Below are positions 1,922 to 31,521 of a DNA stretch of 64,000 nt, one piece after another. This stretch comes from Celeribacter baekdonensis (GTDB lineage: Bacteria; Pseudomonadota; Alphaproteobacteria; Rhodobacterales; Rhodobacteraceae). Every line of letters begins with the position of its first letter. Within the stretch, counting starts at the first letter, position 1. The stretch covers positions 1 through 64,000 of the forward strand of contig NZ_FNBL01000014.1 of NCBI RefSeq assembly GCF_900102315.1, written 5' to 3'. Under the pieces are notes generated by a model. It did no database searches, was not told the origin of the DNA, and worked only from the letters and a program-made list of their open reading frames with translations. A program made the position numbers and the translations under genes.

Positions 1922-3616
1922 TCACATCTCCTGTGTGGCGGCATGACGTCCGGCCACAAACCCAAAGGTCATGGCAGGACCAAGGTTGATCCCACCCGCT
2001 GGATAAAACCCACCAAACACATTCGCATTGTCCGTGCCCGCGGCGTAAAGCCCCGTGATGACCTGACCCTGCGCGTCCAACACCCGCGCCGAACCATCGG
2101 TGCTCAGGCCCGCAAAGGTGCCAAAGCTGCCCGGCACAACCTCAACCGCATAAAACGGCCCCCGCTCGATCGGCGCGACGTTCGGATTTGGGGTGTATTC
2201 GGGATCGCCTTGCAACCGCATATAGGCGGTGCTGCCGCGTCCAAAGGCCGGATCTTCACCCCGCTGCGCACCCTCATTCCACTCTGCCACCGTTGTCTGC
2301 AACCCGGACGGATCAATACCACAGGCTTTGGCCAGCGCCGCAATCGTCTTGCCCGTTTTGAGATACCCGGATGTGATCCAATAGCCAAAGGGCACCGGCG
2401 CGGGGCGCACAATGCCAAGCCCGAAACGCCGCAAGAAACGATGATCACAGACCAGCCAGGAGCGCGCCGGGGCATCGGCGTCGACCGCATCCATCATGGA
2501 TGTCACATAATCATGATAGCCAAGCCCCTCATTGCAGAACCGTTTGCCATCCGAAAGCACCCCGATCACACCGGGTTTGCCGCGGTCAATGATATGCGGG
2601 AACGGGCCTTTGGACCCATCCGGCCACACAACATGCGAGACCGGACAATAGGCGCTGGCACTGGCCAGATCGAGATCCATCACGGCACCAACAGTTTCGC
2701 CAAGCCGAAGCCCGTCGCCCGTTGCCGAGGGCACGGCGAGGGTCAGGTTTTCGTCATTGCGTTCAAAGGTTTCCGCGCGACGCGCGAGGTCATGACCATA
2801 GCCGCCACAAGCCAGAACGACACCACATTTGCTGATCAGTGTTGGCCCATCCTTCAGACGCACCCCCGTGATGCGGCCATCCTCAAAGATCAAATCAGAG
2901 ACGGATTGCGACACTCTCAGATCAACCCCCGCATCCTTGGCCGATTTCATCAAGCGTCCAATCAAAGCCGCCCCATTGCGCAGCTCCATGCCCCGTTTGT
3001 GAAACGCAAGATCGCGGAAATGCCGCAACACGCGGCGGGTCACATAGGCAAAGGATTTGACGGAGCGCGTCATGGTCATAAAGGCCTTGAGATCAGCGCC
3101 GGATTGAATCGTCATGCCCTTGAACGAAGTCTCTTTAAGAGGCTTGCGCAGGATGTTCACGCTCGCGCCCAACGCCCGCGCATCAAAGGGTTTGGCAATC
3201 ACCGATCGCCCTCCCATGCCCGCACCCGGCTGATGGCCATAAGTGTCTGGGATGACCAAACCGCCATCAAATTGCAGGGCGGTGTTGTTTTCGAAAAAGG
3301 CGACCATTTTCGGCGCGGCATCAAGAAAGGCTTCAACCTTTTCCTCTTTGTAATAGTTGCCCGTGACCGCCTTAATATACTGGCGCGGCGCGTCTATGTC
3401 CTCGACAATGCCCGCGCGCTGCGCCACCGGATTGCGGGGCGCAAAAATCCATCCGCCAGACCAGGCCGAGGTCCCGCCCATCACCGGCTCTTTCTCAAGC
3501 ACGACAACAGAGCGCCCCAGATGCGCGGCGGTCACGGCGGCACTCAGCCCGCCCGCACCAGACCCGATCACGATCAGATCAAAGGTCTCTTGAGAAGGGG
3601 TCGCGTGAGCAGTCAT
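1922..3616 (-). CDS. FAD-dependent oxidoreductase, 3-ketosteroid delta1-dehydrogenase (KstD) type
   Basis: A flavoprotein of 564 aa, one of four paralogues in the window. The dinucleotide motif GSGAGG (residues 18-23) is followed by MGGTSAWSGGW, which is characteristic of the FAD_binding_2 family. The KstD-like features are a Tyr in NEGLGYHDY and the C-terminal FYPAGGINLGPAMTFG (Tyr-Pro-x-x-Gly), in place of the His/Arg pair of fumarate reductases. Such enzymes remove hydrogens next to a ring ketone. The start at 3616 was chosen because GGAGG lies 8 bases upstream; an upstream in-frame start adds 18 residues with no similarity. It is divergent from a LysR gene, and a perfect inverted repeat (3648-3674) lies between them. 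Action on a 4-oxocyclohexane-type acid is inference. Confidence 0.87.
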   Translation of the reverse strand: MTAHATPSQETFDLIVIGSGAGGLSAAVTAAHLGRSVVVLEKEPVMGGTSAWSGGWIFAPRNPVAQRAGIVEDIDAPRQYIKAVTGNYYKEEKVEAFLDAAPKMVAFFENNTALQFDGGLVIPDTYGHQPGAGMGGRSVIAKPFDARALGASVNILRKPLKETSFKGMTIQSGADLKAFMTMTRSVKSFAYVTRRVLRHFRDLAFHKRGMELRNGAALIGRLMKSAKDAGVDLRVSQSVSDLIFEDGRITGVRLKDGPTLISKCGVVLACGGYGHDLARRAETFERNDENLTLAVPSATGDGLRLGETVGAVMDLDLASASAYCPVSHVVWPDGSKGPFPHIIDRGKPGVIGVLSDGKRFCNEGLGYHDYVTSMMDAVDADAPARSWLVCDHRFLRRFGLGIVRPAPVPFGYWITSGYLKTGKTIAALAKACGIDPSGLQTTVAEWNEGAQRGEDPAFGRGSTAYMRLQGDPEYTPNPNVAPIERGPFYAVEVVPGSFGTFAGLSTDGSARVLDAQGQVITGLYAAGTDNANVFGGFYPAGGINLGPAMTFGFVAGRHAATQEM

Positions 3617-3647
3617 GATATTTTCCTCCAAATTGGAAAGACTTTTC

Positions 3648-3674
3648 ATACTTGCATGAATTAACGTCAAGTAT
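3648..3674. promoter_or_regulatory. Candidate LysR operator between divergent genes
   Basis: ATACTTG (3648-3654) and CAAGTAT (3668-3674) form a perfect inverted repeat with a 13-base spacer. It lies 31 bases upstream of the FAD enzyme start and 68 bases upstream of the LysR start, the usual place for an autoregulatory LysR site. Confidence 0.6.
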
Positions 3675-3742
3675 CATGTATATTTCCACATTAACATTGT
3701 GTTATTCATGGCCGAGCGTCAGTGCCCGATGAGGACCCATCC

Positions 3743-4657
3743 ATGCGTGATATCACCCTGAGACAAATCGAAGTCATTCGCGCCGTCATGCTGCGCGGCA
3801 CGATCATGGGCGCGGCGGAGTATCTTGGCGTGTCTGCGCCGGGTGTCAGCCGGTTGATCAAACACACCGAGGAGACGCTGAACCTGCGGCTGTTTGAACG
3901 CCGCTCCGGGCTCTTTGTCCCCTCCGTCGAGGCGCAAACCGTGTTCGACCAAATCCGCGCCGTTTATAAGGGGGTTGAAAACCTCCAACTGTCTCTTGAG
4001 AGCCTGCAAAAAGGCGAAAACGTCCAACTTGCCTTTGCCTCTGCCCCCTCTGTCGCGCAATTCATCGCCGCCCGTGCCCTGCGCAATGTCCGCTCCCGTT
4101 TCCCCGATCTGTATATCGACCTGAACATTCTCAAGATCGAAGAGACCGTCGACTACCTTTTGTTGGAACGGGGCGAATTTGTGATCATGAGTTCCAAAGT
4201 CGACAACCCCGGCATCGAAACCGAAGAGATCGCCGCGACCACCTTGGTCTGTGTGTTGCCAGAGGGGCATCCTTTGGCGGAGAAAGACGAAATATCGGTT
4301 CACGATCTGGTCAATGAACCTCTAGTCGGGGTCGATCCCGATGATCCCTATGGCGCTTTGCTGGTCAAACCGTTTCTGGATCACGGCATAGACATGCAGC
4401 ACAGTATGCGCGGGCGCTTCGCCCAGACCGTTGTCAGCCTCGTGCGTCATGGTCTTGGCGTTGCGTTGATCGACCGCTTTTCCGTTGCCGAAGTATACAT
4501 GCCCGGAATCGTGCGTCGTCCCCTGAAAGAGGCCAGTTGCATCCGCAGCTACGTGGTCAAAAAGCAGGGGCGCGTCTTATCCAGCTTTGCCGAATACGCG
4601 ATAACGCAGTTTCGCAAAGAACTGGTGCTTGCATCGACTGAGCCGTTAAGCTCCTAA
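3743..4657 (+). CDS. LysR-family transcriptional regulator
   Basis: A regulator of 304 aa. The N-terminal winged helix-turn-helix spans about residues 3-62 (LRQIEVIRAVMLRGTIMGAA, then SAPGVSRLIKHTEETLNLRLFER). A periplasmic-binding-like effector domain follows from about residue 90. The ATG at 3743 has GAGGA 7 bases upstream; a GTG at 3722 is in frame but lacks a site. It is transcribed away from the FAD enzyme gene and sits in front of tctCBA, so it probably controls one or both in response to the imported acid. The effector cannot be read from sequence. Confidence 0.9.
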   Translation: MRDITLRQIEVIRAVMLRGTIMGAAEYLGVSAPGVSRLIKHTEETLNLRLFERRSGLFVPSVEAQTVFDQIRAVYKGVENLQLSLESLQKGENVQLAFASAPSVAQFIAARALRNVRSRFPDLYIDLNILKIEETVDYLLLERGEFVIMSSKVDNPGIETEEIAATTLVCVLPEGHPLAEKDEISVHDLVNEPLVGVDPDDPYGALLVKPFLDHGIDMQHSMRGRFAQTVVSLVRHGLGVALIDRFSVAEVYMPGIVRRPLKEASCIRSYVVKKQGRVLSSFAEYAITQFRKELVLASTEPLSS

Positions 4658-4825
4658 AATAGCACCGCTTTTACACGCAAGACCGTGTGGTGGCAGATGA
4701 TAAAATAACACTAGGTTAATAATATCAAAGTTTCGGTATTTGACGTTATTCACAATTTGCATATCTGTTATGCACAGGCGAGCCAAGGACCAAAGGCTCT
4801 GCACAACATTGATGGGAGGACATCT

Positions 4826-5830
4826 ATGAAACGTTTCTTGATCGGCGCAGTCTCTGCACTGAGCCTTATGTCGGCTGCGGCCGTAGCACAAGAGTACCCA
4901 ACCAAGGAAATCCAAGGGATCATCCAATGGGGGGCCGGTGGTTCGACAGACACCGTGATGCGCGCCGTGACGCCCCATGCCGAAGAGATCCTGGATGGCA
5001 CGATTGTGTTGCAAAACATGACCGGCGGCGTTGGCGCCATCGCGTTGAACCATGTCGCAAACGAGGATGCTGACGGCTACAAAATCTTGATGGGTGCGGA
5101 GAACCCGCTGTTGTACAAAGTCATGGGCTTTGGCGACAAAGACTACTCTGACTTCACCCCGATCAACATTCTGGCCCGCGGCACGCCCATTCTTGTGGCC
5201 GGTGCGGACGCTCCGTTTGACGATTACGCTGGCATGATCGCATATATCAAAGAGCATCCGGGTGAAGTGCGCCTTGGTTCCACAGGTCCGGGCGGCGTGC
5301 CCTCGGTTGTCACCGCGATGATCGAAACGGTCGAAGGCGATCTTGACGTGATTTCCGTGCCTTACGATGGCGACGGCCCGGCATTGACCGCCCTGCAAGG
5401 GGGCGCAATCGACGTCATGCCCGCCGTTTTGGGGGCTGCGATTGAAAGCGTGCGTGCGGGTAAAATCAAAGCCCTCGCCGTGGTGGACGTCGAAGAAAAC
5501 GAATATCTTCCGGGCGTTGCCCCGGTGACAGCAACCAACGAAGGGTTTGCGACCTATCTGCCCTGGGGTCCGTTCTTTGGCGTTTTCGTCAAAAAAGGCA
5601 CACCGGATGATGTCGTCAAAAAACTCGAAGGCGCTTTTGCCGTGGCCGCGACCAATCCGGGCTTTACCGACCTGATGGAAACCCGTGGCTTCACCTTGAT
5701 GAGCATTTCGGGCGACGAAGCCGAGGCCTTCCTGACCAAATGGCAGCAAGGCACCACCTGGTTGCTCCAAGACGCTGGCATGACCAAATCTTCGCCTGAA
5801 GAGTTCGGCATAGCCCGTCCCGGCGAATAA
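4826..5830 (+). CDS. tctC: Tripartite tricarboxylate transporter substrate-binding protein TctC
   Basis: Periplasmic binding protein of 334 aa. The signal peptide MKRFLIGAVSALSLMSAAAVA ends at about residue 21-22, before QEYPTKEIQGII. The Bug/TctC fold is supported by WGAGGSTDT near the N-terminus and GSTGPGGVPSV in the middle. The ATG at 4826 has GGGAGGA upstream and opens directly into the signal peptide; the longer frame from 4757 does not. It is followed by TctB and TctA genes, so it delivers a carboxylate to that permease. Two stem-loops downstream (5851-5900) probably set higher expression of this gene than of the membrane parts. The ligand is unknown; a ring carboxylate fits the neighbours. 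Confidence 0.93.
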   Translation: MKRFLIGAVSALSLMSAAAVAQEYPTKEIQGIIQWGAGGSTDTVMRAVTPHAEEILDGTIVLQNMTGGVGAIALNHVANEDADGYKILMGAENPLLYKVMGFGDKDYSDFTPINILARGTPILVAGADAPFDDYAGMIAYIKEHPGEVRLGSTGPGGVPSVVTAMIETVEGDLDVISVPYDGDGPALTALQGGAIDVMPAVLGAAIESVRAGKIKALAVVDVEENEYLPGVAPVTATNEGFATYLPWGPFFGVFVKKGTPDDVVKKLEGAFAVAATNPGFTDLMETRGFTLMSISGDEAEAFLTKWQQGTTWLLQDAGMTKSSPEEFGIARPGE

Positions 5831-5935: not shown

Positions 5936-6508
5936 ATGCAAGATCACGTTCATCACCATGACTCGACGCGGGACGGCTCGTCGGACGCCACCCCTGGTGG
6001 CATCGTCGACAAACGTCGTCCTGGCGAGCTTGTCTTTACCGCATGTCTCGTGATCTTCAGCGGTGTTCTGCTGTGGAACGCCTATGGGATTTCCGGGTTT
6101 GAGGCACTGTCCGGCGCGGGATCTGTCCCCATGGCCACAGCGGCCGTGATGCTGATCAGCGTGACGATTGTCTTTTGGCGTACTGTGAAACTGTCGAAAA
6201 CAGAAGACGAAACCGTGATGGAAGACATCACGCCACCGCTCGTTATTATCCTTGCCCTGTTTCTCGTCGCCTATGGCATCCTTTTGAAACCCCTTGGATT
6301 TTTACCAACATCCGCGCTTTTCCTGATCGCGTCGATCAAACTTCTCTCCAAACGCAATTGGGGATTCACCCTGCTCGTCTCGCTGGGCAGTCTGCTCGCG
6401 ATCTATCTGGTGTTCCGCATCGTGTTCACTGTCTTGATGCCCGCAGGCATCGTTCCCGAGGCTGAGGCCCTTCAGCTGTTGCGCAATCTTTTTAAAGGAG
6501 GTGCATGA
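5936..6508 (+). CDS. tctB: Tripartite tricarboxylate transporter small membrane subunit TctB
   Basis: Small inner-membrane subunit of 190 aa. After a His/Asp-rich cytoplasmic start (MQDHVHHHDSTRDG) there are about four hydrophobic segments: around residues 32-50, 58-80, 100-135 (LVIILALFLVAYGILLKPLG) and 150-172. Topology and length match TctB. GGAGGAGAG stands just before the ATG. Its stop overlaps the tctA start (ATGA), so the two are translationally coupled. Confidence 0.9.
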   Translation: MQDHVHHHDSTRDGSSDATPGGIVDKRRPGELVFTACLVIFSGVLLWNAYGISGFEALSGAGSVPMATAAVMLISVTIVFWRTVKLSKTEDETVMEDITPPLVIILALFLVAYGILLKPLGFLPTSALFLIASIKLLSKRNWGFTLLVSLGSLLAIYLVFRIVFTVLMPAGIVPEAEALQLLRNLFKGGA

Positions 6509-8010
6509 TGGACGCGTTCATGGCATTTCTGACGATTTTCACCCATCCTGAGTTGTTGTTGCTGGTCGGCGTGGGCACATTTGCGGGCGTTTACGTCGGC
6601 GCGATCCCCGGCCTGTCTGTGACCATGGCGGTGTCGATCCTCATCTCTTTCACCTTCTCCTGGGACGTGCTGCCCGCGATCTCGCTGATGATCGGCATCT
6701 ATATGGGCGGCGTGTACGGCGGCTCGCGCACGGCGATCCTCTTGAACATCCCCGGCGCGCCCTCTGCCATCGCCACCGCGATGGACGGTTATCCCATGGC
6801 ACAGCGCGGCGAAGCCGGTGAAGCCATCGGCACCACCACCGTCATGTCGTTTTTCGGCGGTCTGGTCGGGATCGTTGTGCTGGCCGTTCTGGCCCCGGTT
6901 GTCTCGGATTTTGCGCTTAAATTCCAACCGCGTGACTATATGCTCTTGGCCGTTCTCGGCATTCTGCTTGTCGGTTCTTTGTCCTCTGGGTCGTTGGTCA
7001 AAGGCATTTTTGCGGGCGCTCTTGGGATTGCCATTGGCGCAGTCGGCATGGACCCGTTGACCTTTACCGAACGCTTCACCTTTGACATCCCCTTGATGCG
7101 CGGCGGTATCAATTTTATCGCCGTGATGATCGGCATGTTTGGCGTCTCAGAGGCGCTGATGCAGTTGCATCATGTCGATACCCCCGCGATCCGCCAGAAA
7201 ATCAACCGCATCGTTCCCTCCTTTGGCACGATCCGCAAACACTTGCCGCTGTCGCTTCAGACCTCGACCATCGGGGTTCTGATCGGCGCCCTCCCCGGCA
7301 CCGGCGGCGATATCGCGGCGTTGATGGCCTATGATCACGCCAAACGCGTCACCAAAAACCCGTCGCGTCCCTTTGGTGAAGGCGCGATTGAGGGCCTTGT
7401 GGCACCGGAAACCGCCAACAATGCCGCCGTGGGCGGGGCCTTTATCCCGATGATGACGCTGGGCATTCCGGGCGACGCGGTGACCGCGATCATGATCGGC
7501 GCGCTGTTCATTCACGGGCTGAATCCCGGCCCGATGTTGATGGTCGAGCAACCCGATATGTTCTGGTTCATCGTCGGCGCTTTGGTCATGGCCAACTTCT
7601 TTATGCTGCTGTTTGGCCTCACCGGCATCAAACTGTTCACCAAGATCGTCGAAATGCCGCGCGCTGTGTTGATCCCGCTGATCCTGCTCTTGTCCATCGT
7701 CGGGGCCTATGCGGTGAACAATTCGATCACCGATGTCTATTGGATGCTCGGCTTTGGCGTCTTTGGCTATTTCATGCGCCATTATGGCTATCCGCTTGGT
7801 CCCGTGATCCTTGGTGTGATCCTGTCACGCCTTTTGGATGACAACTGGCGGCGCGCCATCATTTCTGAACGCGAAGATTTGGGCCGGTTTTTCCATGGCA
7901 TCGTGACCAGCCCGCTGTCGCTCGTGCTGTTTGTCGCCGTGATCCTGATCTTTGTGTCGCAAACCCCGCTCTGGACCAAATTCCGCAAGAAAGAGACCGC
8001 TTCAAAATGA
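6505..8010 (+). CDS. tctA: Tripartite tricarboxylate transporter large permease TctA
   Basis: Large permease of 501 aa with roughly a dozen membrane segments. Family motifs are visible: GAIPGLSVTMAVSILISFTF near the N-terminus, MGGVYGGSRTAILLNIPG, and PGTGGDIAALMAYDHAKR in the middle. It moves the carboxylate captured by TctC across the inner membrane using an ion gradient. An AAAGGAGG site lies inside the end of tctB, and the gene overlaps tctB and the following dehydrogenase gene by ATGA, so import and first oxidation are one transcript. Confidence 0.95.
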   Translation: MMDAFMAFLTIFTHPELLLLVGVGTFAGVYVGAIPGLSVTMAVSILISFTFSWDVLPAISLMIGIYMGGVYGGSRTAILLNIPGAPSAIATAMDGYPMAQRGEAGEAIGTTTVMSFFGGLVGIVVLAVLAPVVSDFALKFQPRDYMLLAVLGILLVGSLSSGSLVKGIFAGALGIAIGAVGMDPLTFTERFTFDIPLMRGGINFIAVMIGMFGVSEALMQLHHVDTPAIRQKINRIVPSFGTIRKHLPLSLQTSTIGVLIGALPGTGGDIAALMAYDHAKRVTKNPSRPFGEGAIEGLVAPETANNAAVGGAFIPMMTLGIPGDAVTAIMIGALFIHGLNPGPMLMVEQPDMFWFIVGALVMANFFMLLFGLTGIKLFTKIVEMPRAVLIPLILLLSIVGAYAVNNSITDVYWMLGFGVFGYFMRHYGYPLGPVILGVILSRLLDDNWRRAIISEREDLGRFFHGIVTSPLSLVLFVAVILIFVSQTPLWTKFRKKETASK

Positions 8011-8840
8011 GTGCTCCCGACCTTCTCCTCGGCCTGATCGGCGACAATATCGCCGCCTCCCGCTCCCCGCGTCTGCATGAGCTGTGCGGCGCGCAAAACG
8101 GCAAACATGTCCGCTATGACCGCCTTGTCCCGCATGACATCGGTGCAAGCTGGGACACGATTTTTGCGGGGCTGGCGGCCAAGGGCTATCGCGGCACCAA
8201 TGTGACCTATCCGTACAAGGAAAAGGTCGTGGCAAAGGTCGAGATTGATGATCCTCTGGTGCGGGCGATCGGCGCGGTCAACACCGTGATCTTCGAGAAC
8301 GGCCACGCCAAGGGCTTTAACACTGACTATTCCGGCTTTGTCGCCGCCTACACCCGCGAGCGCGCCGCGATGCCCACGGGTGTCACCTTGATGATCGGCA
8401 CTGGCGGTGTGGGCCGGGCTGTGGCCTTTGGCCTCATTGCCCTTGGTGCGGCTGAAATTCGTCTGGTCGATATGGACCGCGCCAAAGCCGAGGCCCTTGC
8501 CGCCGATCTGCGCAACGCCGCCCCCGACACGACGGTCACGGTATTTGACAGCGCCGTCGAGGCCGCCAAGGGGGCCGTCGGTTTGATCAATTGCACACCC
8601 GTTGGTATGGTTGGCAAAGAGGGAACCCCCCTGCCCGTCACAGCGATGAAGGGGGCCGAATGGGCCTTTGATGCGGTTTACACACCCGTCGAGACCGAAT
8701 TTTTGACCGGTGCCGCGGCCCATGGCCTCGACATCATCTCGGGCTGGGAATTGTTCTTTTTCCAAGGCGTTCACGCTTGGGGCCTGTTCACCGACCTGCC
8801 GCTTGACCAAGACCGCCTGCGCCAAGATCTTTTGTCCTAA
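8007..8840 (+). CDS. aroE: Shikimate dehydrogenase family protein (catabolic context)
   Basis: A 277-aa NAD(P)-dependent oxidoreductase that interconverts shikimate (or quinate) and the 3-dehydro acid. The substrate site is visible as SRS (residues 18-20), NVTYPYK with catalytic Lys71, and GFNTD with Asp107. The nucleotide motif GTGGVGRAV lies near residue 131. It overlaps tctA by 4 bases and is followed 29 bases later by a 3-dehydroshikimate dehydratase gene. This argues for degradation of imported shikimate or quinate rather than aromatic amino-acid synthesis. A second, divergent member lies at 22559-23356. Cofactor choice and preference for quinate cannot be decided here. Confidence 0.88.
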   Translation: MSAPDLLLGLIGDNIAASRSPRLHELCGAQNGKHVRYDRLVPHDIGASWDTIFAGLAAKGYRGTNVTYPYKEKVVAKVEIDDPLVRAIGAVNTVIFENGHAKGFNTDYSGFVAAYTRERAAMPTGVTLMIGTGGVGRAVAFGLIALGAAEIRLVDMDRAKAEALAADLRNAAPDTTVTVFDSAVEAAKGAVGLINCTPVGMVGKEGTPLPVTAMKGAEWAFDAVYTPVETEFLTGAAAHGLDIISGWELFFFQGVHAWGLFTDLPLDQDRLRQDLLS

Positions 8841-8869: not shown

Positions 8870-10756
8870 ATGAAAACCTCGATTGCGACCGTTTCTGTTT
8901 CCGGCGATCTGCGCGAAAAACTCGACGCCATTGCGGCGGCCGGGTTTGATGGGATCGAGATTTTCGAACAAGACTTCATCGCCTTTGACGGTAGCCCACG
9001 TGATGTGGGCAACATGATCCGCGATCACGGGTTGGAAATTTCGCTGTTCCAACCCTTCCGCGATTTCGAAGGCCTGCCCGAACCCCTGCGCGCCAAGGCC
9101 TTTGACCGGGCCGAGCGCAAATTCGATCTCATGCAGGAACTTGGCACCGATTTGGTGTTGGTCTGTTCGTCGTGCCATCCACAGGCTTTGGGCGGGATTG
9201 ACCGCGCCGCCGCCGATTTTCGCGAGCTGGGCGAACGGGCCGCCAAACGCGGTTTGCGTGTGGGTTATGAGGCGCTGTGCTGGGGCAAACATGTGAACGA
9301 TCACCGCGACGCTTGGGAAATCGTGCGCCGGGCCGATCATCCGAACATCGGCATCATCCTTGACAGTTTTCACACGCTGGCGCGCAAAACCGCACCCGAC
9401 AGCATCCGCTCGATCCCCGGCGACAAAATCTTTTTCGTTCAGATGGCCGATGCGCCGATGATCGACATGGACCTGCTCTATTGGTCGCGCCACTTTCGCA
9501 ATATGCCCGGCGAGGGCGATCTTGACGTGACGGGATTCACCCGCGCCGTCATGGCGGCGGGCTATACGGGGCCGATTTCGTTGGAGATTTTCAACGACCA
9601 TTTCCGTGGCTCCAACACCAAACAAGTGGCCAATGATGGCTATCGCTCCCTCATCGCCTTGATGGATGATGTGCATCGTGCCGAACCCGGTCTCAAACTC
9701 GACCTGCCCACCCTGCCCCAGCGCGTCAAGCCCGAAGGCGTGTCCTTCGTCGAATTTGCCACCCGCGGCAAAGAGGCCGAAACCCTGAGCGAGCTGCTCA
9801 AAACCCTCGGGTTTGCCCGCGCCGCCACCCATCGCAACAAAGCCGTCACACTGTGGCAACAGGGCGACATCCGCCTTGTCATCAATGAGGCAACCGACGG
9901 CCACGCCGCCCATGCCTACAACGCGCGGGGCACGACCGTTTGCGATCTTGGCATCCTGGTCAACTCCGCGCAGGACGTGATCACCCGCGCCACAGCCACG
10001 GGGGCACAGAGTTTTTCCCAAGACCTCGACATTGGCGAATTGGACATTCCGGCGATCCGGGGCCTTGGCGGCTCTGTGATGCATTTCATCGACAAAGAGA
10101 CGGGTCTGGATCGGGTCTGGGAGGTGGAATTCAAGGTCGAAGATGCACCCGATTTGATCGGGGTCGGTCTGATGCATATCGACCATATCGCCCAGACGAT
10201 GAGCTATGAGGATATGCTGAGTTGGACCCTGTTCTACACCGCCATTTTCGACGTCAATAAAAGCCCGATGGTCGATGTGATCGACCCTGACGGGTTGGTG
10301 CGCTCGCAAGTGATCGAAACCCGCGATGGGGCGTTTCGCATCACCCTCAACGGCGCGGACACGCATCGCACCTTGGCGGGACAGTTTCTGGCCGACACCT
10401 TTGGCGCTTCGGTGCAACACATCGCGCTGGCTACGGCTGATATTTTTGACACCGCCGCAAAATTGGCAGAGCGCGGCTTTGCGCCCCTGCCGATTTCCCC
10501 CAACTATTACGACGATCTCGCAGCACGGTTCGATTTCCCGCCGGGTCTTCTTGAGAAAATGAAAGCCGCGCATGTGCTCTATGATCGCGATGAGAAGGGT
10601 GAGTTTTTTCAACTCTATTCCGGCAGCTTCGCCGGTGGGCTGTTCTTTGAAATCCTTCAGCGTGGAAGCTACACGGGGTTTGGCGCGCCGAACGCACCGT
10701 TCCGTATTGCCGCCCAAAAACGCCGCCTCCGCCCCAAAGGCATGCCGTTGCGCTGA
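8870..10756 (+). CDS. quiC: 3-dehydroshikimate dehydratase, QuiC1-type two-domain fusion
   Basis: A protein of 628 aa with an N-terminal TIM barrel (about residues 1-280) fused to a C-terminal 4-hydroxyphenylpyruvate-dioxygenase-like (VOC) domain (about 295-628). This architecture is known from Pseudomonas QuiC1, where the barrel dehydrates 3-dehydroshikimate to protocatechuate. Barrel features include GFDGIEIFEQD, YEALCWGKHVND, ILDSFH and ISLEIFNDHF. The C-terminal half keeps the HPPD metal triad as His in MHIDHIA (about 435), His in VQHIAL (about 515) and Glu in FFEILQR (about 593). GGAG precedes the ATG. It lies just after the shikimate dehydrogenase gene, giving a two-step route to protocatechuate. 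Its stop is only 4 bases from that of the convergent SDR gene. Confidence 0.9.
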   Translation: MKTSIATVSVSGDLREKLDAIAAAGFDGIEIFEQDFIAFDGSPRDVGNMIRDHGLEISLFQPFRDFEGLPEPLRAKAFDRAERKFDLMQELGTDLVLVCSSCHPQALGGIDRAAADFRELGERAAKRGLRVGYEALCWGKHVNDHRDAWEIVRRADHPNIGIILDSFHTLARKTAPDSIRSIPGDKIFFVQMADAPMIDMDLLYWSRHFRNMPGEGDLDVTGFTRAVMAAGYTGPISLEIFNDHFRGSNTKQVANDGYRSLIALMDDVHRAEPGLKLDLPTLPQRVKPEGVSFVEFATRGKEAETLSELLKTLGFARAATHRNKAVTLWQQGDIRLVINEATDGHAAHAYNARGTTVCDLGILVNSAQDVITRATATGAQSFSQDLDIGELDIPAIRGLGGSVMHFIDKETGLDRVWEVEFKVEDAPDLIGVGLMHIDHIAQTMSYEDMLSWTLFYTAIFDVNKSPMVDVIDPDGLVRSQVIETRDGAFRITLNGADTHRTLAGQFLADTFGASVQHIALATADIFDTAAKLAERGFAPLPISPNYYDDLAARFDFPPGLLEKMKAAHVLYDRDEKGEFFQLYSGSFAGGLFFEILQRGSYTGFGAPNAPFRIAAQKRRLRPKGMPLR

Positions 10757-17417: not shown

Positions 17418-17418
17418 G

Positions 17419-21318: not shown

Positions 21319-21347
21319 CCCCGCGCCCCATCATATGAGGCGCAGGG
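21319..21347 (-). terminator. Stem-loop between the two liv binding-protein genes
   Basis: CCCCGCGCC (21319-21327) and GGCGCAGGG (21339-21347) form a 9-bp stem with one wobble pair and an 11-base loop. There is no strong T run, so mRNA protection is as likely as termination. Confidence 0.5.
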
Positions 21348-21360
21348 CGGGCAGCCTGTC

Positions 21361-23356: not shown

Positions 23357-23493
23357 CCCGTCCTCCTCCCTGACGCGCCTCACGCAACGTCACCTCGCCC
23401 TCAAAATTGCAATCCTTCGCCGATTTAAGAATGGACGGCGCTCCATATAAATTGGACAATTCGCTAGACCCCAAAGTCGGGGCCGTCGCCCGT

Positions 23494-24426: not shown

Positions 24427-26171
24427 GATGCCATCCGATCAGTGTGGGCGGTCTTGCGCTGCGCCGCATGGGTCGCCGCGATCGAGCCAAAAACAATACC
24501 CGGACCAATGGTGATGCCGGGGCCGGGATAGACCCCGCCCATGATCGAATTCATATCCGCCCCAGCGGCATAGAGCCCGTCGATTACGGCGCCATTTTCC
24601 GTCAGCAAACGGGCGTTTTCATCGGTGACAAGACCCTGAGCCGCGCCAATATCGCCCGGATACAGTTTGACCGCATAATACGGCCCCTTGCCAATCGGGC
24701 GCAGGGTTGGGTTCGGCCCGCCATGGGTGGCGTCGCCATTGGCGCGCTCATAGACGGTTTCACCGCGGTGAAAATCCTGATCCACGCCCTGCTTTGCCAT
24801 CTCATTAAACCGCGCCACGGTGGCGCTCAGGTTTGTGCCATCTATGCCAAGCTGCGCGGCAAGATCGCTCAGATCACGCCCCTCGGTCAGATAGTCCTCG
24901 GCGATGAACGGCCCAAAATCCTTGGTCCCCGGATGGATCATGCCCATGCCGTATTTGCGCGCCGCTGCCGCGTCGGCAATGAGGAACGTCGGAATATGCG
25001 ACCCGTCCTTATCGGCGGCATACATGGCAGAGACGAATTCGTGATAGCTACGGCTTTCGTTGACGAACCGCTTGCCGTCGCGCCCAACCGAAATGATCCC
25101 CGGTTTGGAGCGGTCCAACACGAAATGCGGAAACGCGGCTTCTGTGCCGTCTGCCCGTTTGCGGATCGACACCGGCGCCCAGTAACATGGCTGTGCCGCA
25201 CTATCAGAATAATGCGCACCAAGCCCGAGAACGATGTCATGCAACTCCCCGGTGTGACCGGGGGCGGCGGGCGACACGCGCGGCGTCGGCGCGGGCATCA
25301 TGGTCTGACGTTTGACTGGGTGACGGGCAAAACCGCCGGAGGCCAGCACCACCCCTTTGGTCGCTGTGATGTCGAAAGACTGCCCGCCTTGCTCCAAAGT
25401 AAGCCGATACGCCCCCTCTCCGAGCGGCGTCAATCCCGTGGTTTTGGTCTGGGTGACAATCTCAACCCCGCGCTTTCGCGCCTCATAGAGAAACCGCCCG
25501 ATCAAGGCATTGCCCATCAACAGACGCGTGTCGCGACCATGCGCCCATTTGCGCAAACAATAGCGTGCGACGATGCGAATCGAATAGGCCAGCGAGCGCA
25601 GGCTTTTCTTCATCTTGAGCAAATGCGCGATGTCATCCCGGTCGATCTGCATCCCGCCCAAAATAGTGAATTCCGGGATCGGTGGACGCACGAGCTTTAG
25701 GTCATCGCCCAGCAGCGCGCCATCAAAGGGCACAGGCTCAAGCGCGCGACCAAAGGCGGTCGAGCCTTCGAGTTCAAACAAGTAATCGGGATGGAAAGGA
25801 CGGCCCCGGAACCGGACGTTTGTCTCATCCTCAAGGCGATGGATCGCGCCGGGGCCGCGTTTGACAAAGGCCTCGCGCAGGGCACGCGGCGCGCGGTTCC
25901 CAACAGCACGATCCAGGAACGCCAGAACCGTCTCTTCGCTGTCTTTCGCCCCCAATTCATCACGAAACCGGGTGTTCGGCACCCATGTGGTTGCCGCCGA
26001 CAAAGCCGAGGTGCCACCAAGAAATTCTGTGCGTTCCACCAGCAAAACGCGCGCGCCTTCAAGAGCCGCAAACACGGCAGCAGACAGGCCCGCCGCCCCT
26101 GCCCCAAGAACGACCACATCGTAGCTGGCGCCATTTTCGAGCTGTGCGCCAGAGCGCGATTCTTTTGACAT
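24423..26171 (-). CDS. FAD-dependent oxidoreductase, KstD type
   Basis: The third KstD-like flavoprotein, 582 aa. It has GAGAAG (residues 23-28), LGGTSALSAATTWVPNT, Tyr in NESRSYHEF and C-terminal VYPGPGITIGPGIVFG. It is the most divergent of the four: SAATT replaces the SGGxx that follows the FAD loop in the others. GGGAGGG precedes the ATG. It is coupled to the epimerase gene downstream and divergent from the Gfo/Idh/MocA and IclR genes. Confidence 0.86.
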   Translation of the reverse strand: MSKESRSGAQLENGASYDVVVLGAGAAGLSAAVFAALEGARVLLVERTEFLGGTSALSAATTWVPNTRFRDELGAKDSEETVLAFLDRAVGNRAPRALREAFVKRGPGAIHRLEDETNVRFRGRPFHPDYLFELEGSTAFGRALEPVPFDGALLGDDLKLVRPPIPEFTILGGMQIDRDDIAHLLKMKKSLRSLAYSIRIVARYCLRKWAHGRDTRLLMGNALIGRFLYEARKRGVEIVTQTKTTGLTPLGEGAYRLTLEQGGQSFDITATKGVVLASGGFARHPVKRQTMMPAPTPRVSPAAPGHTGELHDIVLGLGAHYSDSAAQPCYWAPVSIRKRADGTEAAFPHFVLDRSKPGIISVGRDGKRFVNESRSYHEFVSAMYAADKDGSHIPTFLIADAAAARKYGMGMIHPGTKDFGPFIAEDYLTEGRDLSDLAAQLGIDGTNLSATVARFNEMAKQGVDQDFHRGETVYERANGDATHGGPNPTLRPIGKGPYYAVKLYPGDIGAAQGLVTDENARLLTENGAVIDGLYAAGADMNSIMGGVYPGPGITIGPGIVFGSIAATHAAQRKTAHTDRMAS

Positions 26172-26360: not shown

Positions 26361-27443
26361 ATGACACAGACACGATTGGCCATTGTGGGGGGCGGCATCA
26401 TTGGGCGCACCCATGCCGATGCGATCCGCGCCTGTCCCGGCACCGATCTCGTCGCCATTGTCGATCCGTTTGAATCGGGTAAATCCCTTGCCCAAGATTT
26501 GGAGTGCCCCCATCTGGAAACGCTCGCGGCCCTGATTGAGTTGCGTCCAGACGGGGTGATCATAGCCACGCCAAACGCGCTTCATGTGCCTCAGGCGATG
26601 ACATTGATCCGCGCGGGGATTCCTGTGCTGGTCGAAAAACCCTTGGGCGACACGGCCCATAGCTGTGCGGCTTTGGTGGCCCTGTCAGATCGCACAGGGG
26701 TGCAGGGGCTTGTCGGTCACCACCGTCGCCACAACCCCATCGTTCAAGCCGCCAAAACGGCCATCACCGAGGGTCGATTCGGCACATTGGTCAGCGGCAC
26801 AATCTCCGCCACGCTCTACAAGGATGCCCGCTATTTCGATGTTGCCTGGCGGCGGGAACCGGGCGCGGGCGGGCCGATCCTGATCAACTTGATCCATGAA
26901 ATCGACCTTGTGCGGCATTTGTTTGGCGAAATCACAGAGGTCACGGCCCTCACCTCAAATACCCAACGCGGCTTTGACGTCGAAGACACCGCCGCCGTGA
27001 TCCTGCGCCTTGAAACCGGCGGGTTGATCACAATTTCTCTGACCGATGCGGGTGTGGGACCATGGTGTTGGGACACGACCGCAGGCGAAAATCCGGCGCG
27101 GTTTCCGGCGATGCCCGCCGTCTCGCATGTGTTTGCCGGGACACAGGCCGGGATGAGCCTGCCGGATCTGTCGCTTTGGACCCATGAGGGTCCGCGCGAT
27201 TGGACCATGCCTCAGATCAATCGGCCGCTCGATCTGGTCACAACCGACAGCTATGTCGAACAAATTCGTCATTTTTCCGCCGTGATCAAAGGCGATGAAA
27301 CCCCGCGCATCACCTTGTCCGATGGCGCCCGCAACATAGCGGTGATCGAGGCGATCCATGGGTCCATCACACAAAGACGCCCTGTTCCGCTTGGCACACA
27401 CAGGATAAACACGTCGTCAAAGCCAAAAGCGATGATGGAGTAA
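26361..27443 (+). CDS. Gfo/Idh/MocA-family oxidoreductase
   Basis: A 360-aa NAD(P)-dependent oxidoreductase. The N-terminal Rossmann motif is GGGIIGRTHADAI (about residues 10-22) and the family motif EKPLGDT is near residue 95. A second Lys/His-containing segment (HHRRHNP, LIHEIDL) follows. Members oxidise inositol, sugars and other polyols. GGGAGGA lies upstream. It is followed 3 bases later by the IclR gene and is divergent from a KstD-type gene, so it probably acts on a cyclic hydroxy acid of this pathway. Confidence 0.87.
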   Translation: MTQTRLAIVGGGIIGRTHADAIRACPGTDLVAIVDPFESGKSLAQDLECPHLETLAALIELRPDGVIIATPNALHVPQAMTLIRAGIPVLVEKPLGDTAHSCAALVALSDRTGVQGLVGHHRRHNPIVQAAKTAITEGRFGTLVSGTISATLYKDARYFDVAWRREPGAGGPILINLIHEIDLVRHLFGEITEVTALTSNTQRGFDVEDTAAVILRLETGGLITISLTDAGVGPWCWDTTAGENPARFPAMPAVSHVFAGTQAGMSLPDLSLWTHEGPRDWTMPQINRPLDLVTTDSYVEQIRHFSAVIKGDETPRITLSDGARNIAVIEAIHGSITQRRPVPLGTHRINTSSKPKAMME

Positions 27444-27446: not shown

Positions 27447-28274
27447 ATGTCCGGTGTGATGGAGAGAACCCTTTCGATCCTTGAATTTCTTGGGAAACAT
27501 CCCGAAGGCGTTCAAGTGAGCGCGATCGCGAGCGAGCTGGATATGCCCGCCTCGGCAGCGCATCGGTTGCTCAAAGAACTGTCGCAATACGGCTATGTGC
27601 GACAACTCAGGACCCAAGGCGATTACGCTCTCACCATCAAACTCGCAGGCATCGGGTTGGCGTTTTTGGCCCGCACCGGCGTGCCCGATATTGCACAGCC
27701 CATCCTTGATCGCTTGGCGGCGGATTCGCGCGAACTTGTGCGCCTGTCCGTGATTGATGGCGAGGATCTTGTCTGGGTCGGCGTGGCACAGGGCGCGGTG
27801 GCGGGCCTGCGCTATGACCCCGGTCGCGAACAGGGGATCAAGGTGCATTTGGCCGGCTCGGCGGGTGGACATGCCTGGCTGTCAACACTGACGGATGAAC
27901 AAGCACTTGAGAAAATTGGTGCCCAAGGGCTGCGGGCGGATTTTGCCATGGGGCCGGGCGCGCCTACGTCGATTCCAGAGGTGCTGGCCTCGCTGGCTGA
28001 CACCCGCAAACGTGGCTATGCCACCATGTCCGACAGCTATCATGCCGGGATGGCGGCGATGGCTGTTCCCATTTTTCGCAGCGAAGACCATGCTGTGATC
28101 GGCTGTCTGTCCATCGCCGGTCCGGGTGTGCGTGTGACGCCCGAATTGATGGACCAATTCCACCCGCTTCTGCGTGAAGCCGCCGATGAAATTGGCGGTG
28201 CGTCAGAGGCCTCCTTCTTTTTCAACCGCAATCGGGCCCTGCCCGCAGAGACCGAAACCCGTCAGGCTGGCTGA
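27447..28274 (+). CDS. IclR-family transcriptional regulator
   Basis: A regulator of 275 aa. The N-terminal winged helix-turn-helix (about residues 3-60: ERTLSILEFLGKHPEGVQVS, DMPASAAHRLLKELSQYG) is followed by an IclR GAF-like effector domain (AGSAGGHAWLSTL, GYATMSDSYHAGMAAMAVPIF). IclR proteins commonly govern quinate, shikimate and protocatechuate genes, which fits. It is co-transcribed with the preceding oxidoreductase and followed by a KstD-type gene. Confidence 0.9.
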   Translation: MSGVMERTLSILEFLGKHPEGVQVSAIASELDMPASAAHRLLKELSQYGYVRQLRTQGDYALTIKLAGIGLAFLARTGVPDIAQPILDRLAADSRELVRLSVIDGEDLVWVGVAQGAVAGLRYDPGREQGIKVHLAGSAGGHAWLSTLTDEQALEKIGAQGLRADFAMGPGAPTSIPEVLASLADTRKRGYATMSDSYHAGMAAMAVPIFRSEDHAVIGCLSIAGPGVRVTPELMDQFHPLLREAADEIGGASEASFFFNRNRALPAETETRQAG

Positions 28275-28341: not shown

Positions 28342-30090
28342 ATGGACAGCGAAACGGCGGGCGTCACCGCCTGCGACGTTCTGATCGTTGGATCAGGCGC
28401 AGCGGGATTGTGTGCCGCGATCACGGCAGCAAAAGCAGGGCTTGATGTCATTGTGGCCGAGAAAACCGGGGTTTTCGGCGGCACCTCTGCATGGTCCGGC
28501 GGCTGGCTTTGGATTCCACAGAACCCACAGGCGATCCGCGCCGGGATCACTGAGCCCGACACCAAACCCCGCCGCTATCTGCGCGCGATTTTGGGCCATC
28601 GCGCCAATGATCCGCGCCTAGAGACGTTCTTGCAAAACGGTCCCGACATGCTGCGCTTTCTCGAAGAGATCGGCGTCATGACCTGGGTTGATGGCAATCA
28701 TGTGCCTGATTTTTACGCTCATAATGGTGCCGCCGAAGGCGGGCGCTCTGTGACCACCGCGGCCTATGATGGGCGTCAACTTGGACCTTTGATGGCGCGG
28801 CTGCGTCCGCCACTCGATGTCGTGTCGCTTTGGGGCATGGGCATCGGCAGCGGTGCGGATATGGCGCATTTTTTCAATGCGACCCGGTCCCCAAGCGCGC
28901 TGTGGCATGTCACCAAACGGCTGGCCAAACATCTCTATGATCTGGCGCGTTACCGGCGTTCGATGCAGCTTGTGGGCGGCAATGCCCTTGTGGCGCAGCT
29001 TTTGAAAGGGGCAGCGGACAGCGGGGTTCAGCTTTGGCATGACAGTCCGGTGACCAGCCTACGCCATGATAAGGGTCGGATCGTGGGTGCATCCGTGATC
29101 AGACAAGGGACGCCAATCCGCATCACCGCCCGCAAAGGCGTGGTGCTTGCGGCGGGCGGCTATCCGCATGATGCCCTGCGGCAAACACACAGCTTTGCCC
29201 ATACAGACACTATTGCGCATGCCTCTGCTGCGCCCAAATCAAACACCGGCGACGGCTTGCGTTTGGCTGAAACGGTTGGTGCAGCGCTTGACATGAACAT
29301 TGCTGAACCCGCCGCATGGGCGCCCGTGTCCCGCGTCCCGGATGGTGAGGGCGGGTTCAAAAATTTCCCCCATCTCATTGATCGCGCCAAACCCGGATTT
29401 ATCGCGGTGGATATCAGAGGGCAGAGGTTTGTTAATGAGGCCGACAGCTATCATGAGTTCATGAAAGCCCTGTTTGCGGTGACGCCAAAGGGGCACGCGC
29501 CGGAGGCTTGGCTGATCTGCGATCACCGGGCGCAGAGGCAATTTGGCATCGGCTGGGCCAAACCCTTTCCCTTCCCGCTCACCCGCTATCTGCGCACGGG
29601 CTACCTCAAACGCGGGCGGCGGATCACAGATTTGGCGGCGCAGTGCGGCCTGCCCACCGAGGCGCTTGCACAGACCATCGCGCGGTTCAATGACAGCGCG
29701 CAGGCTGGCCACGACCCGGCGTTTCACCGCGGCGCATCGCTTTACAACCGCGCCCAAGGTTGGGCCAAACACAAAGGTCCAAACCCGGCCTTGGGGCCAT
29801 TGGAGCGCAGGCCGTTTTATGCGGTCAAACTCGTGCCCGGCAGCCTTGGTACATTTGCCGGGATCAAAACCGCCGCCGACGGGCAGGTGCTTGGGCAAGA
29901 CGGAGCGCCGATGCCCGGGCTCTATGCCATCGGCAATGACGCCGCCTCGATCATGGGCGGGCATTACCCGTCTGGCGGCATCACCCTCGGGCCGGGCATG
30001 ACGTTTGGCTACATCGTCGGTCGCCGAGTTTCAGGTCAACCAATCAAAGGCCTAACCCCTCCCATTTCACACCACACAAAGGATGCATGA
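28342..30090 (+). CDS. FAD-dependent oxidoreductase, KstD type
   Basis: The fourth KstD-like flavoprotein, 582 aa. It has GSGAAG (residues 17-22), FGGTSAWSGGWLWIPQNP, Tyr in NEADSYHEF and C-terminal HYPSGGITLGPGMTFG. It resembles the enzymes at 1922 and 14194 more than the one at 24423. It is followed by a NIPSNAP gene and a TIM-barrel gene, and both types recur elsewhere in this island, so this looks like a repeated module. Confidence 0.87.
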   Translation: MDSETAGVTACDVLIVGSGAAGLCAAITAAKAGLDVIVAEKTGVFGGTSAWSGGWLWIPQNPQAIRAGITEPDTKPRRYLRAILGHRANDPRLETFLQNGPDMLRFLEEIGVMTWVDGNHVPDFYAHNGAAEGGRSVTTAAYDGRQLGPLMARLRPPLDVVSLWGMGIGSGADMAHFFNATRSPSALWHVTKRLAKHLYDLARYRRSMQLVGGNALVAQLLKGAADSGVQLWHDSPVTSLRHDKGRIVGASVIRQGTPIRITARKGVVLAAGGYPHDALRQTHSFAHTDTIAHASAAPKSNTGDGLRLAETVGAALDMNIAEPAAWAPVSRVPDGEGGFKNFPHLIDRAKPGFIAVDIRGQRFVNEADSYHEFMKALFAVTPKGHAPEAWLICDHRAQRQFGIGWAKPFPFPLTRYLRTGYLKRGRRITDLAAQCGLPTEALAQTIARFNDSAQAGHDPAFHRGASLYNRAQGWAKHKGPNPALGPLERRPFYAVKLVPGSLGTFAGIKTAADGQVLGQDGAPMPGLYAIGNDAASIMGGHYPSGGITLGPGMTFGYIVGRRVSGQPIKGLTPPISHHTKDA

Positions 30091-30091
30091 C

Positions 30092-30703
30092 ATGACCTAT
30101 TACGAAATCACAACGCTCAAGACCGTGATCTTTGGCGCAGGAAAGGCCTCGGACGGGCTGCAAAACTGGCTCGCGGCGGGCAAAGGCACGCTGCTCGGGG
30201 CGTTTGCCACCGACATTGGCACCCTCAACGAAGTCTATGTTTTGCGCGGCTTCGAGACGCTGGACGAGATGATGGACGAACGCGAACGCGCGGTGATGTC
30301 CGACAATCCGATGGGCTGTATGGAGCATTTGGTCGACCTGCGGTTTGACAGCTACAAACCCTTTGATTTCATGGCCCCGATCACCCCCGGCACCTATGGG
30401 CCGATCTACGAATTTCGCACCTATAAGGCCAAGCTGAACGGCGTGTCTGTCACCCAAGACAAATGGCGCGACGCCATCCCGGCGCGTTCGGAATATTCGC
30501 CGCTGACCATGGCGATGTGGGGCCTTGATGGTGCGCCGCGTATCACGCAAATCTGGCCCTATAGCTCACTTGACGCCCGCACCAAGGCGCGCAGCCAATC
30601 GGTCGCGGACGGCAAATGGCCGGCCAAAGGCGGCCCGGACTGGCTCACCCCACAGATGACCAGCGCCATCGCCCTTCCCTTGCCATTTTCCCCGCTGAAG
30701 TGA
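30092..30703 (+). CDS. NIPSNAP-family protein
   Basis: A protein of 203 aa with MTYYEITTLKTV at the N-terminus and a second NIPSNAP-like half starting YEFRTYKAKLNG near residue 108. The ATG at 30092 is preferred because AAAGG lies 9-10 bases upstream; the ATG at 30083 touches that site and would overlap the FAD gene by 8 bases. It is a paralogue of the protein at 12482-13048. The reaction, if any, is unknown; the same association with KstD-type and SDR genes occurs twice. Confidence 0.78.
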   Translation: MTYYEITTLKTVIFGAGKASDGLQNWLAAGKGTLLGAFATDIGTLNEVYVLRGFETLDEMMDERERAVMSDNPMGCMEHLVDLRFDSYKPFDFMAPITPGTYGPIYEFRTYKAKLNGVSVTQDKWRDAIPARSEYSPLTMAMWGLDGAPRITQIWPYSSLDARTKARSQSVADGKWPAKGGPDWLTPQMTSAIALPLPFSPLK

Positions 30704-30708
30704 GTGCC

Positions 30709-31521
30709 ATGCCCCATAAATTCTCTCTTGCCTTTTTGACCACACATGAGGTTCCGCCACATGAGGCGGTGCGCATTGCGGCGGCCACCGGGTATGACCT
30801 TGTGGGGCTACGGTTTTTACCCGCCGCCCCAACCGAGGCCCCCTATCCGATCCTGTCTGATCCGACAGTTGAAACTTTGGTGAAAGCGGCGCTTGAGGAG
30901 ACCGGAATCGGCATTGCCGATATTGAAATCGCCCGGCTCAAACCGGACACCAATGTCGAAGACTTTCGTGATTTTCTGGCGCTCGGCCAACGGCTTGGCG
31001 CGCGCAACGTGCTTGTTGCGGGCGATGATGCAAACCATGATCGTCTGACCGAAACCTTTGCCGCCTTTTGCGATCTCGCAGCCGAATATGGCCTGACCGG
31101 GGATTTGGAGTTCATGCCCTGGACCGGGGTCAAAACCCTACCCGAGGCACAGCGCATCGTGGAAACGGCGGGGTGCGCCAATGGCGGCGTTCTGATCGAC
31201 GCGCTGCATTGGGACCGGGCGGGCGGGACGGTCGCGCAGATTCAAAACCTGCCCCCCGCGCTCATTCACTACGCCCAGCTTTGTGATGGTCCAAAGCCAT
31301 ATGACCCTTCCGATGCCGGGATGATCGAGATCGCCCGAGGCGCACGGCTTTTGCCCGGAGACGGCGGGATTGATCTGATCGCCATGGTGTGCGCCTTGCC
31401 GCGTGATCTGGTTCTGAGCGTCGAGGTGGCCCAGATCGACAAGGCCAAAACCGTGGATGCCCAGAGCCGTGCCGCCGAAGCGCTCGCACGGTCCAAGGCA
31501 CTGGTGACCAAGGCCACCTGA
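30709..31521 (+). CDS. Sugar phosphate isomerase/epimerase-like TIM-barrel protein
   Basis: A 270-aa TIM-barrel protein and paralogue of the one at 1098-1919. Shared motifs are LEFMPWTGV, LIDALHWDR, YAQLCD and LSVEVAQ. The ATG at 30709 begins MPHKFSLAFLTTHEV, matching the paralogue's N-terminus; a frame open from 30616 adds residues from the NIPSNAP gene region. It ends the operon and is followed by a terminator. Its intact C-terminus shows what the IS-altered copy may have lost. Confidence 0.83.
   Translation: MPHKFSLAFLTTHEVPPHEAVRIAAATGYDLVGLRFLPAAPTEAPYPILSDPTVETLVKAALEETGIGIADIEIARLKPDTNVEDFRDFLALGQRLGARNVLVAGDDANHDRLTETFAAFCDLAAEYGLTGDLEFMPWTGVKTLPEAQRIVETAGCANGGVLIDALHWDRAGGTVAQIQNLPPALIHYAQLCDGPKPYDPSDAGMIEIARGARLLPGDGGIDLIAMVCALPRDLVLSVEVAQIDKAKTVDAQSRAAEALARSKALVTKAT

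Follow-up and report, generated by a model that had tools for sequence, protein, structure and literature searches.

Two adjacent gene modules with KstD-type flavoenzymes in Celeribacter baekdonensis: a candidate route from hydroxylated cyclohexanecarboxylic acids to aromatic acids

The first 64 kb of contig NZ_FNBL01000014.1 of Celeribacter baekdonensis (positions 1 to 64,000 of 113,650 bases; assembly GCF_900102315.1; genome size 4.44 Mb), hereafter the window, raise the question of what four flavin adenine dinucleotide (FAD) enzymes resembling 3-ketosteroid dehydrogenase (KstD) do side by side in one locus. Their open reading frames (ORFs) are FADa (1922-3670, minus strand), FADb (14194-15885, plus strand), FADc (24423-26171, minus strand) and FADd (28342-30090, plus strand), and within the same 28 kb lie two AroE-type dehydrogenases, a two-domain QuiC-type dehydratase and three short-chain dehydrogenases/reductases (SDRs). 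A sequence-only reading of the window had placed the four FAD genes correctly and named the other enzymes, and had proposed one pathway in which a ring hydroxyl group is oxidized and the ring is then desaturated stepwise to a 4-hydroxybenzoate-type product, alongside dehydration to protocatechuate. Here we present a follow-up analysis, from which the island emerges as two adjacent modules that, on balance, probably convert hydroxylated cyclohexanecarboxylic acids with a saturated or partly saturated ring into aromatic acids.

The island is real and conserved, and the clustering of the FAD genes goes well beyond chance, because the only matches of the ChcC1 model (E ≤ 1e-40) in the 4.44-Mb genome are these four, all inside the 28 kb. 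Apart from these, strong PF00890 matches in the genome are limited to SdhA, NadB and TcuA, each identified above an NCBIfam cut-off. Pairwise identity among FADa, FADb, FADc and FADd is 35-46%. FADa (794.5 bits) and FADd (764.2) score above the cut-off of the NCBIfam model PRK06134 (747) and FADb (714.7) just under it, while FADc (776.3) exceeds that of PRK12843 (758); both models name only an 'FAD-dependent oxidoreductase', with no further function. The top functionally named model for FADa (494.8 bits), FADb (549.0) and FADd (502.6) is ChcC2, a desaturase of 4-oxo ring acids, ahead of every steroid KstD model, and for FADc it lies 3 bits behind a KstD model (410.3 vs 413.6). All scores fall under the cut-offs of the KstD models (PRK12844, 789; PRK07843, 788; PRK12845, 793), the highest being 463.6 bits for FADd on PRK12844, and under that of the flavocytochrome c model TIGR01813 (285.45), on which the four proteins reach 145-164 bits. 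Searched against the PDB with phmmer, FADd matched KstD 7p18 at 1.1e-83, the best fumarate reductase at 4.1e-20 and urocanate reductase at 4.6e-16; for FADc and FADd together, the values were about 1e-83 for 7p18 and about 1e-15 to 1e-22 for fumarate and urocanate reductases. Structure models of FADc and FADd (predicted local distance difference test scores 92.6 and 92.7) were compared by Foldseek, the top matches being KstD 7p18 (template modeling (TM) score 0.87-0.88) and 4c3x (0.79-0.81), followed by cyclohexanone dehydrogenase (CDH) and, below it, urocanate and fumarate reductases with TM (query) of about 0.57-0.66. By profile, sequence and fold, the four enzymes are thus KstD-type proteins that group with KstD, ChcC2 and CDH, as the sequence-only reading had held. 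Identity as fumarate or urocanate reductases, which that reading had named as the outcome that would speak against it, was rejected, since the TIGR01813, phmmer and Foldseek scores were all lower than the KstD-type ones; this judgment was made from scores and not from phylogeny. The tree, for which 88 of 151 rows were kept after thinning at 72% identity, holds two KstD rows and no ChcC1, ChcC2, fumarate or urocanate reductases; it places the KstD rows beside the FADc side with support left open and long branches flagged, and was used only for separating the clades of the window proteins. No protein above the ChcC2 cut-off was found in 398 sampled Pseudomonadota genomes (0/398). The Corynebacterium glutamicum control genome holds one PRK06134 member above the cut-off.

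Active-site residues were compared in a set of 145 rows, consisting of the four window rows, 139 of the 145 clustered ORFs (>450 amino acids) and two plasmid rows, in which loci with short FAD pieces are undercounted; row L183_8023 (branch length 10, no match to FADa-d) was dropped from the alignment as a non-relative. According to PMC5348764, the KstD catalytic tetrad is Tyr119, Tyr318, Tyr487 and Gly491. All four window enzymes contain NExxxYH and a C-terminal Tyr-Pro-x-x-Gly (YPAGG, YPGAG, YPGPG, YPSGG), the two marks on which the sequence-only reading had relied, and these align with Tyr318, Tyr487 and Gly491 of KstD1 (4c3x), whose equivalents are kept in 145, 145 and 144 of the 145 relatives. 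The likeness is not complete, however: the full tetrad is found only in FADb and FADc, the Tyr119 position being Thr in FADa (PD-T-Y) and Phe in FADd (PD-F-Y). Among rows assigned to FADb or FADc, this position is Tyr in 58/58, compared with 0/87 in the FADa/FADd rows. The site of KstD1 Ser52 and CDH Trp113 follows the same division, with Trp in 86 of the 87 non-Tyr rows (one gap) and Thr, Ala or Val in 56 of the 58 Tyr rows (one Trp, one gap). The split is one clade-level event, not many independent changes.

For CDH of Alicycliphilus denitrificans (8AM3, 8AM6, 8AM8), PMC10966990 reports that Trp113 helps close a pocket barely larger than cyclohexanone, that W113A admits a bulkier substrate, and that Y195F abolishes activity. 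We equate CDH Y195 with KstD Tyr119 on the basis of the Asp-Tyr motif and the CDH authors' list of four catalytic residues. Because the Trp113 equivalent is present and the Y195 equivalent is replaced, the FADa/FADd class appears to have a small-ring pocket without a residue that CDH needs. The residue following the changed position is His in 74 of the 87 non-Tyr rows and Tyr in the window proteins FADa and FADd; this His might stand in for the lost Tyr. A further feature of the family is the loop H-x(2,3)-[D/E]-R-x-K-P-G, found in 144/145 relatives and in 0/2 KstD rows, with its His in 145 and its Lys in 144 of the relatives and both missing from the two KstD rows (7p18, 4c3x). In an alignment that is gapped there, the loop begins beside KstD1 F294 and aligns with CDH F352; the same two sources list F294 and V296 as pocket (active-site) residues (PMC5348764) and F352 as pocket wall (PMC10966990). 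In FADd, the residues concerned are Phe124 at the Tyr119 position, Trp55 at the Trp113 position, and His344 and Lys350 in the loop. The His/Lys loop may bind a substrate carboxylate.

The island does not form one pathway unit, as first proposed; it comprises two separable modules with their own transporters and regulators, each occurring without the other. In module A, the gene of TIM_a, a xylose-isomerase-like TIM barrel (PF01261 by Pfam; 1098-1925, minus strand), overlaps that of FADa by 4 bases, and the remaining genes lie on the plus strand: a LysR-family regulator (3722-4657; LysR is annotated in the similar loci L033 and L184), a tripartite tricarboxylate-type transporter with a TctC-like binding protein (4757-5830; from synteny and annotation), a TctB-like membrane protein (5936-6508) and a TctA-like permease (6505-8010; both from ORF and synteny), the quinate/shikimate-dehydrogenase-type AroEa (8007-8840) and the QuiC-type 3-dehydroshikimate dehydratase (8870-10756). 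Module B includes a branched-chain-amino-acid-type ATP-binding cassette (ABC) transporter (LivF, LivG, LivM, LivH and two LivK-type binding proteins; 16686-22488, minus strand; from ORFs and the annotation in L030), the AroE-type dehydrogenase AroEb (22559-23383, minus strand), FADc, a Gfo/Idh/MocA-type oxidoreductase (Gfo; 26361-27443, plus strand; annotated in L030), an IclR-family regulator (27447-28274, plus strand; Pfam), FADd, the NIPSNAP protein NIPb (30083-30703, plus strand; Pfam), whose gene overlaps that of FADd, and TIM_b, a second xylose-isomerase-like TIM barrel (30709-31521, plus strand; longest ORF from 30616). The gene of Epim, an NAD-dependent epimerase/dehydratase (23494-24426, minus strand), overlaps that of FADc by 4 bases, and FADb directly abuts SDRc (15886-16662, plus strand; ORF, Pfam), which lies immediately 3' of it.

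The partner enzymes were assigned by profile, nearest PDB entry and residue patterns. For AroEa the closest PDB entry is 3jyo, a quinate/shikimate dehydrogenase; the protein keeps a Lys/Asp pair and a Ser-x-Ser site, which we take to be the catalytic residues and the carboxylate site of the AroE family. The closest entry for AroEb is 4k28, described as a 'shikimate dehydrogenase family protein', and the Lys/Asp pair is retained; within the AroEb group (62 of 72 rows), every row (62/62) has the Thr, Lys, Asn and Asp, and the first Ser of Ser-x-Ser is Val in 61. Both proteins lie under every AroE cut-off shown by NCBIfam. The QuiC-type protein is a TIM barrel fused to an HPPD-like domain; it matches 5hmq at 3.1e-173 over residues 1-618 and scores 662.4 bits on NF042435, under the cut-off of 1200. 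TIM_a and TIM_b are 39% identical and carry the metal-site patterns Glu-Asp-His-Glu and Glu-Asp-Gln-Glu, respectively, the latter being that of QuiC, with Gln at QuiC's Gln position in 57/58 TIM_b family rows; the two barrels would be isomerases or dehydratases. A copy in Kluyvera is accompanied by an aromatic-acid transporter of the major facilitator superfamily (PcaK, 488.7 of 770 bits; TIGR00895, 410.1 of 418.55 bits).

Many other bacteria carry the core gene set as well. Counts refer to the 80 named loci, which are the best 80 of 562 confirmed ones picked by similarity to FADd; 18 of them are not over 21 kb, and the counts are of sequences, not of independent events. Near an FAD gene, AroE was found in 70 of these loci, IclR in 65, a TIM barrel in 56, NIPSNAP in 43, Gfo in 39 and QuiC in 14, and 57 combine AroE with one FAD of each of the two classes. 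Both pocket classes are present in 54/82 loci, and in 55 of 59 mixed FAD pairs the two genes are no more than 3 kb apart; two structural classes therefore fit the data better than the idea, put forward earlier, of four desaturases for four ring positions or stereoisomers. Close FAD relatives (E ≤ 1e-150) occur in 29 of the 398 sampled Pseudomonadota genomes, the source genome included. Module A was found without module B in three genomes (G008, G024, G036) and, without a nearby QuiC, on Sagittula and Alloyangia plasmids, while module B occurs without FADa in G001 and without FADa and FADc on a Paracoccus plasmid. Six genomes of this family have QuiC adjacent to module A; among the named loci, QuiC is present in 9 of 22 without a Tyr-class FAD vs 5 of 58 others (p = 0.0017, ignoring kinship), all nine being from Pseudomonas. 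Among 20 genomes of the same genus, again with the source genome included, all four FADs are found together in the congeners G012 (over two contigs), G013 and G018. In G018, FADa is split over three short ORFs (L050 1177-2631), and module A may be decaying there. The 420-kb contig concerned (G018:C1) has the same genes at both ends (L050, L066), as would be seen in a circular replicon whose ends overlap. No published description of the module was found in the open-licence PMC literature, although one may still exist in print.

Aromatic exits are encoded elsewhere in the genome, in a group of genes on contig C15 that comprises pcaJ, pcaF, pcaH, pcaB and pobA together with the gene of a PcaQ-like regulator scoring slightly under its cut-off. 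Two further intradiol-type dioxygenases (L187 5214-6083, L186 6542-7402) have no NCBIfam match at E ≤ 1e-60, so that other exits are possible.

In the route that we infer from the genes, enzyme families, catalytic residues, frequent pairing of the FAD classes, two modules and encoded sinks, the direction and order of the reactions, the substrates, the binding of a carboxylate and the roles of TIM_b, NIPSNAP and Gfo are predictions. In module A, TctABC would import the acid, AroEa would convert a C3-type ring hydroxyl to a ketone, FADa would remove two hydrogens next to this ketone, and the TIM-barrel enzyme, QuiC or both would dehydrate the ring, with protocatechuate as the product. The most economical substrate would be dihydroshikimate (3,4,5-trihydroxycyclohexanecarboxylate), which is our guess, from which FADa would generate 3-dehydroshikimate for QuiC. 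In module B, a related acid would enter via the Liv-type ABC transporter, AroEb would make the ring ketone, and Gfo, the SDRs or Epim would handle other hydroxyls or epimers. FADc, with the full tetrad, and FADd, with the Trp-lined pocket lacking Tyr119, would take two hydrogen pairs in succession, a step modeled on the two consecutive desaturases of cyclohexanecarboxylate degraders; TIM_b and NIPSNAP would aid isomerization or dehydration, and 4-hydroxybenzoate, protocatechuate or both would pass into pobA and the pca operon. The chemistry of the sequence-only reading is plausible in outline: AroE accompanies the FAD genes and the 4-hydroxybenzoate and protocatechuate sinks are encoded, but none of the FAD enzymes scores above the ChcC1 or ChcC2 cut-off.

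Among known systems, the modules are closest in plan to the aerobic cyclohexanecarboxylate route, of which we regard them as a variant. As outlined in PMC9795900, that route starts with 4-hydroxylation and oxidation to the 4-oxo acid, after which two desaturases acting one after the other give 4-hydroxybenzoate, from which protocatechuate is formed; the chc pathway with ChcC1 and ChcC2 was described for Sinomonas cyclohexanicum (Yamamoto 2021, cited there). The likeness lies in the ketone-forming dehydrogenation, the two desaturases that follow it and the two exits, and module B has the enzyme types for the last two stages, although its ketone-forming dehydrogenase differs, being AroE-type, and a TIM barrel, NIPSNAP, Gfo and QuiC are added. 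With KstD the FAD enzymes share the fold of the FADc and FADd models and most or all of the tetrad, but differ in the His/Lys loop and, for FADa and FADd, in Tyr119. CDH is a single-ring ketone desaturase and shares its Trp113 with FADa and FADd; it differs in its low identity (23-24% in Foldseek alignments to the FADc and FADd models), its neutral substrate, its Y195 and the lack of the His/Lys loop in the alignment.

Several observations weigh against the aromatization of ring carboxylic acids by paired desaturases. The Tyr119 equivalent is missing from FADa and FADd, and since the matching change in CDH abolished activity, their chemistry may differ from that of KstD. All four FAD enzymes stay well under the cut-offs of ChcC2 (NF053677, 900; 410-549 bits) and ChcC1 (NF053676, 1000; 284-334 bits). 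The acidic residue and the Arg of the loop are also present in KstD 7p18, though not in 4c3x, in the gapped part of the alignment, and AroEb has lost one Ser of its Ser-x-Ser site (Gln-Val-Lys-Ser), its Gln262 being kept in only 31/62 rows of the group. The pairing is not universal, as a single FAD class is found in 28/82 loci, a Rhodococcus plasmid combines AroE, Gfo and a TIM barrel with just one KstD-like FAD, and AroE is missing from 10 of the 80 named loci. The pca genes and pobA are on a contig other than that of the island, and the Gfo, TIM and epimerase genes would equally suit a cyclitol substrate. Our confidence is slightly lowered because the loop Arg is common to one KstD and because two dioxygenases lack an assignment.

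The cyclitol alternative is the most serious one, though we hold it unlikely: cyclitols or aminocyclitols without a carboxylate (inositol-like) would be oxidized and isomerized by the IolG-like Gfo and the IolI-like TIM barrel, and the FAD enzymes would make polyhydroxybenzenes. Gfo is indeed nearest to IolG (124 bits, below the cut-off of 355), TIM_b matches IolI weakly (1.3e-4), the epimerase gene overlaps FADc, and the two unassigned dioxygenases leave room for a polyhydroxybenzene exit, yet the AroE-type enzymes, the Tct-type and PcaK-like transporters in copies elsewhere, the His/Lys loop and QuiC speak for a substrate with a carboxylate on its ring. A carboxylate would be retained if the FAD enzymes made gallate from 3-dehydroshikimate or 3-dehydroquinate by C4-C5 desaturation, a chemically direct step that agrees with the tannase/feruloyl-esterase genes beside module A in Sagittula and Alloyangia; we consider this improbable. 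QuiC, whose family makes protocatechuate, accompanies module A, and no gallate dioxygenase of the LigB family was found in this genome, the only LigB-family protein found being 4,5-DOPA dioxygenase (NCBIfam, 291.8 bits over 233), for which reason gallate was rejected as the main exit.

There is likewise little probability that the island merely serves plain quinate or shikimate use through AroEa and QuiC, the FAD enzymes being unrelated to it and nearby by accident. AroEa and QuiC resemble the enzymes of the known quinate route and share its protocatechuate exit, and to our knowledge the standard quinate/shikimate route uses no FAD desaturase, nor does quinate need one; here, however, a desaturase is linked to such a route, with FAD and AroE genes together in most of the named loci, three window FAD genes overlapping a partner gene and FADb abutting one. 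True steroid or terpenoid KstD enzymes are very improbable indeed, in spite of the KstD fold and three of the catalytic residues. A steroid KstD identity was rejected on the model scores given above and on active-site differences, namely the Trp in place of Ser52 in FADa and FADd and the His/Lys loop, and no steroid-pathway gene was among the 15 conserved neighbor ORFs scanned (other neighbors were not scanned).

Other features of the window complete the description. Between the two modules, in addition to FADb and SDRc, lie SDRa (10761-11534, minus strand; ORF, Pfam), SDRb (11715-12470, plus strand; the longest ORF starts at 11556, the homologous part near 11715), the NIPSNAP protein NIPa (12482-13105, minus strand; Pfam) and an AraC-family regulator (13130-14179, minus strand), which had been called PobR-like; the regulator is there, but it scores highest on the NCBIfam model HpaA, without reaching the cut-off (139.1 of 274.65 bits). 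The two adjoining LivK-type binding proteins (20101-22488) are 77% identical and look like a recent duplication. At the contig start, beside module A, the ORF at 64-1074 presumably encodes an IS30-type transposase. Between module B and the next cluster (31678-33080), overlapping minus-strand ORFs appear by eye to be remnants of other genes, and the cluster itself (33379-39015) contains, again by eye, an acyl-CoA ligase, a thiolase-like protein, a zinc-ribbon/SDR fusion, a cyclase and an Asp/Glu racemase. A cupin dioxygenase in 43182-47058 scores between the gentisate (287.1 of 442.1 bits) and 5-aminosalicylate dioxygenase models (276 of 650); an FAH-type hydrolase, a nitrilase and a maleate-isomerase-like protein were seen by eye beside it.

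Plants produce acids of the quinate type in abundance, and the title of a 1957 paper by Carr and others (listed in PMC10558750) reports the reduction of quinic acid to dihydroshikimic acid by certain lactic acid bacteria. We tentatively suggest, as a possibility well short of an even chance, that the modules represent a widespread, undescribed aerobic re-aromatization of reduced hydroaromatic acids such as dihydroshikimate and dihydroxycyclohexanecarboxylates by paired KstD-superfamily desaturases with two active-site types, one of them with a Trp-lined, carboxylate-binding pocket and no Tyr119. If true, a conserved gene set that feeds reduced rings back into aromatic metabolism would close a gap in the turnover of carbon, families annotated only as 'FAD-dependent oxidoreductase', 'NIPSNAP' or 'sugar phosphate isomerase/epimerase' would gain functions, and new small-ring desaturases would become available for biocatalysis. 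The natural loss of a Tyr119-type residue across one whole class offers a direct test of the KstD mechanism.

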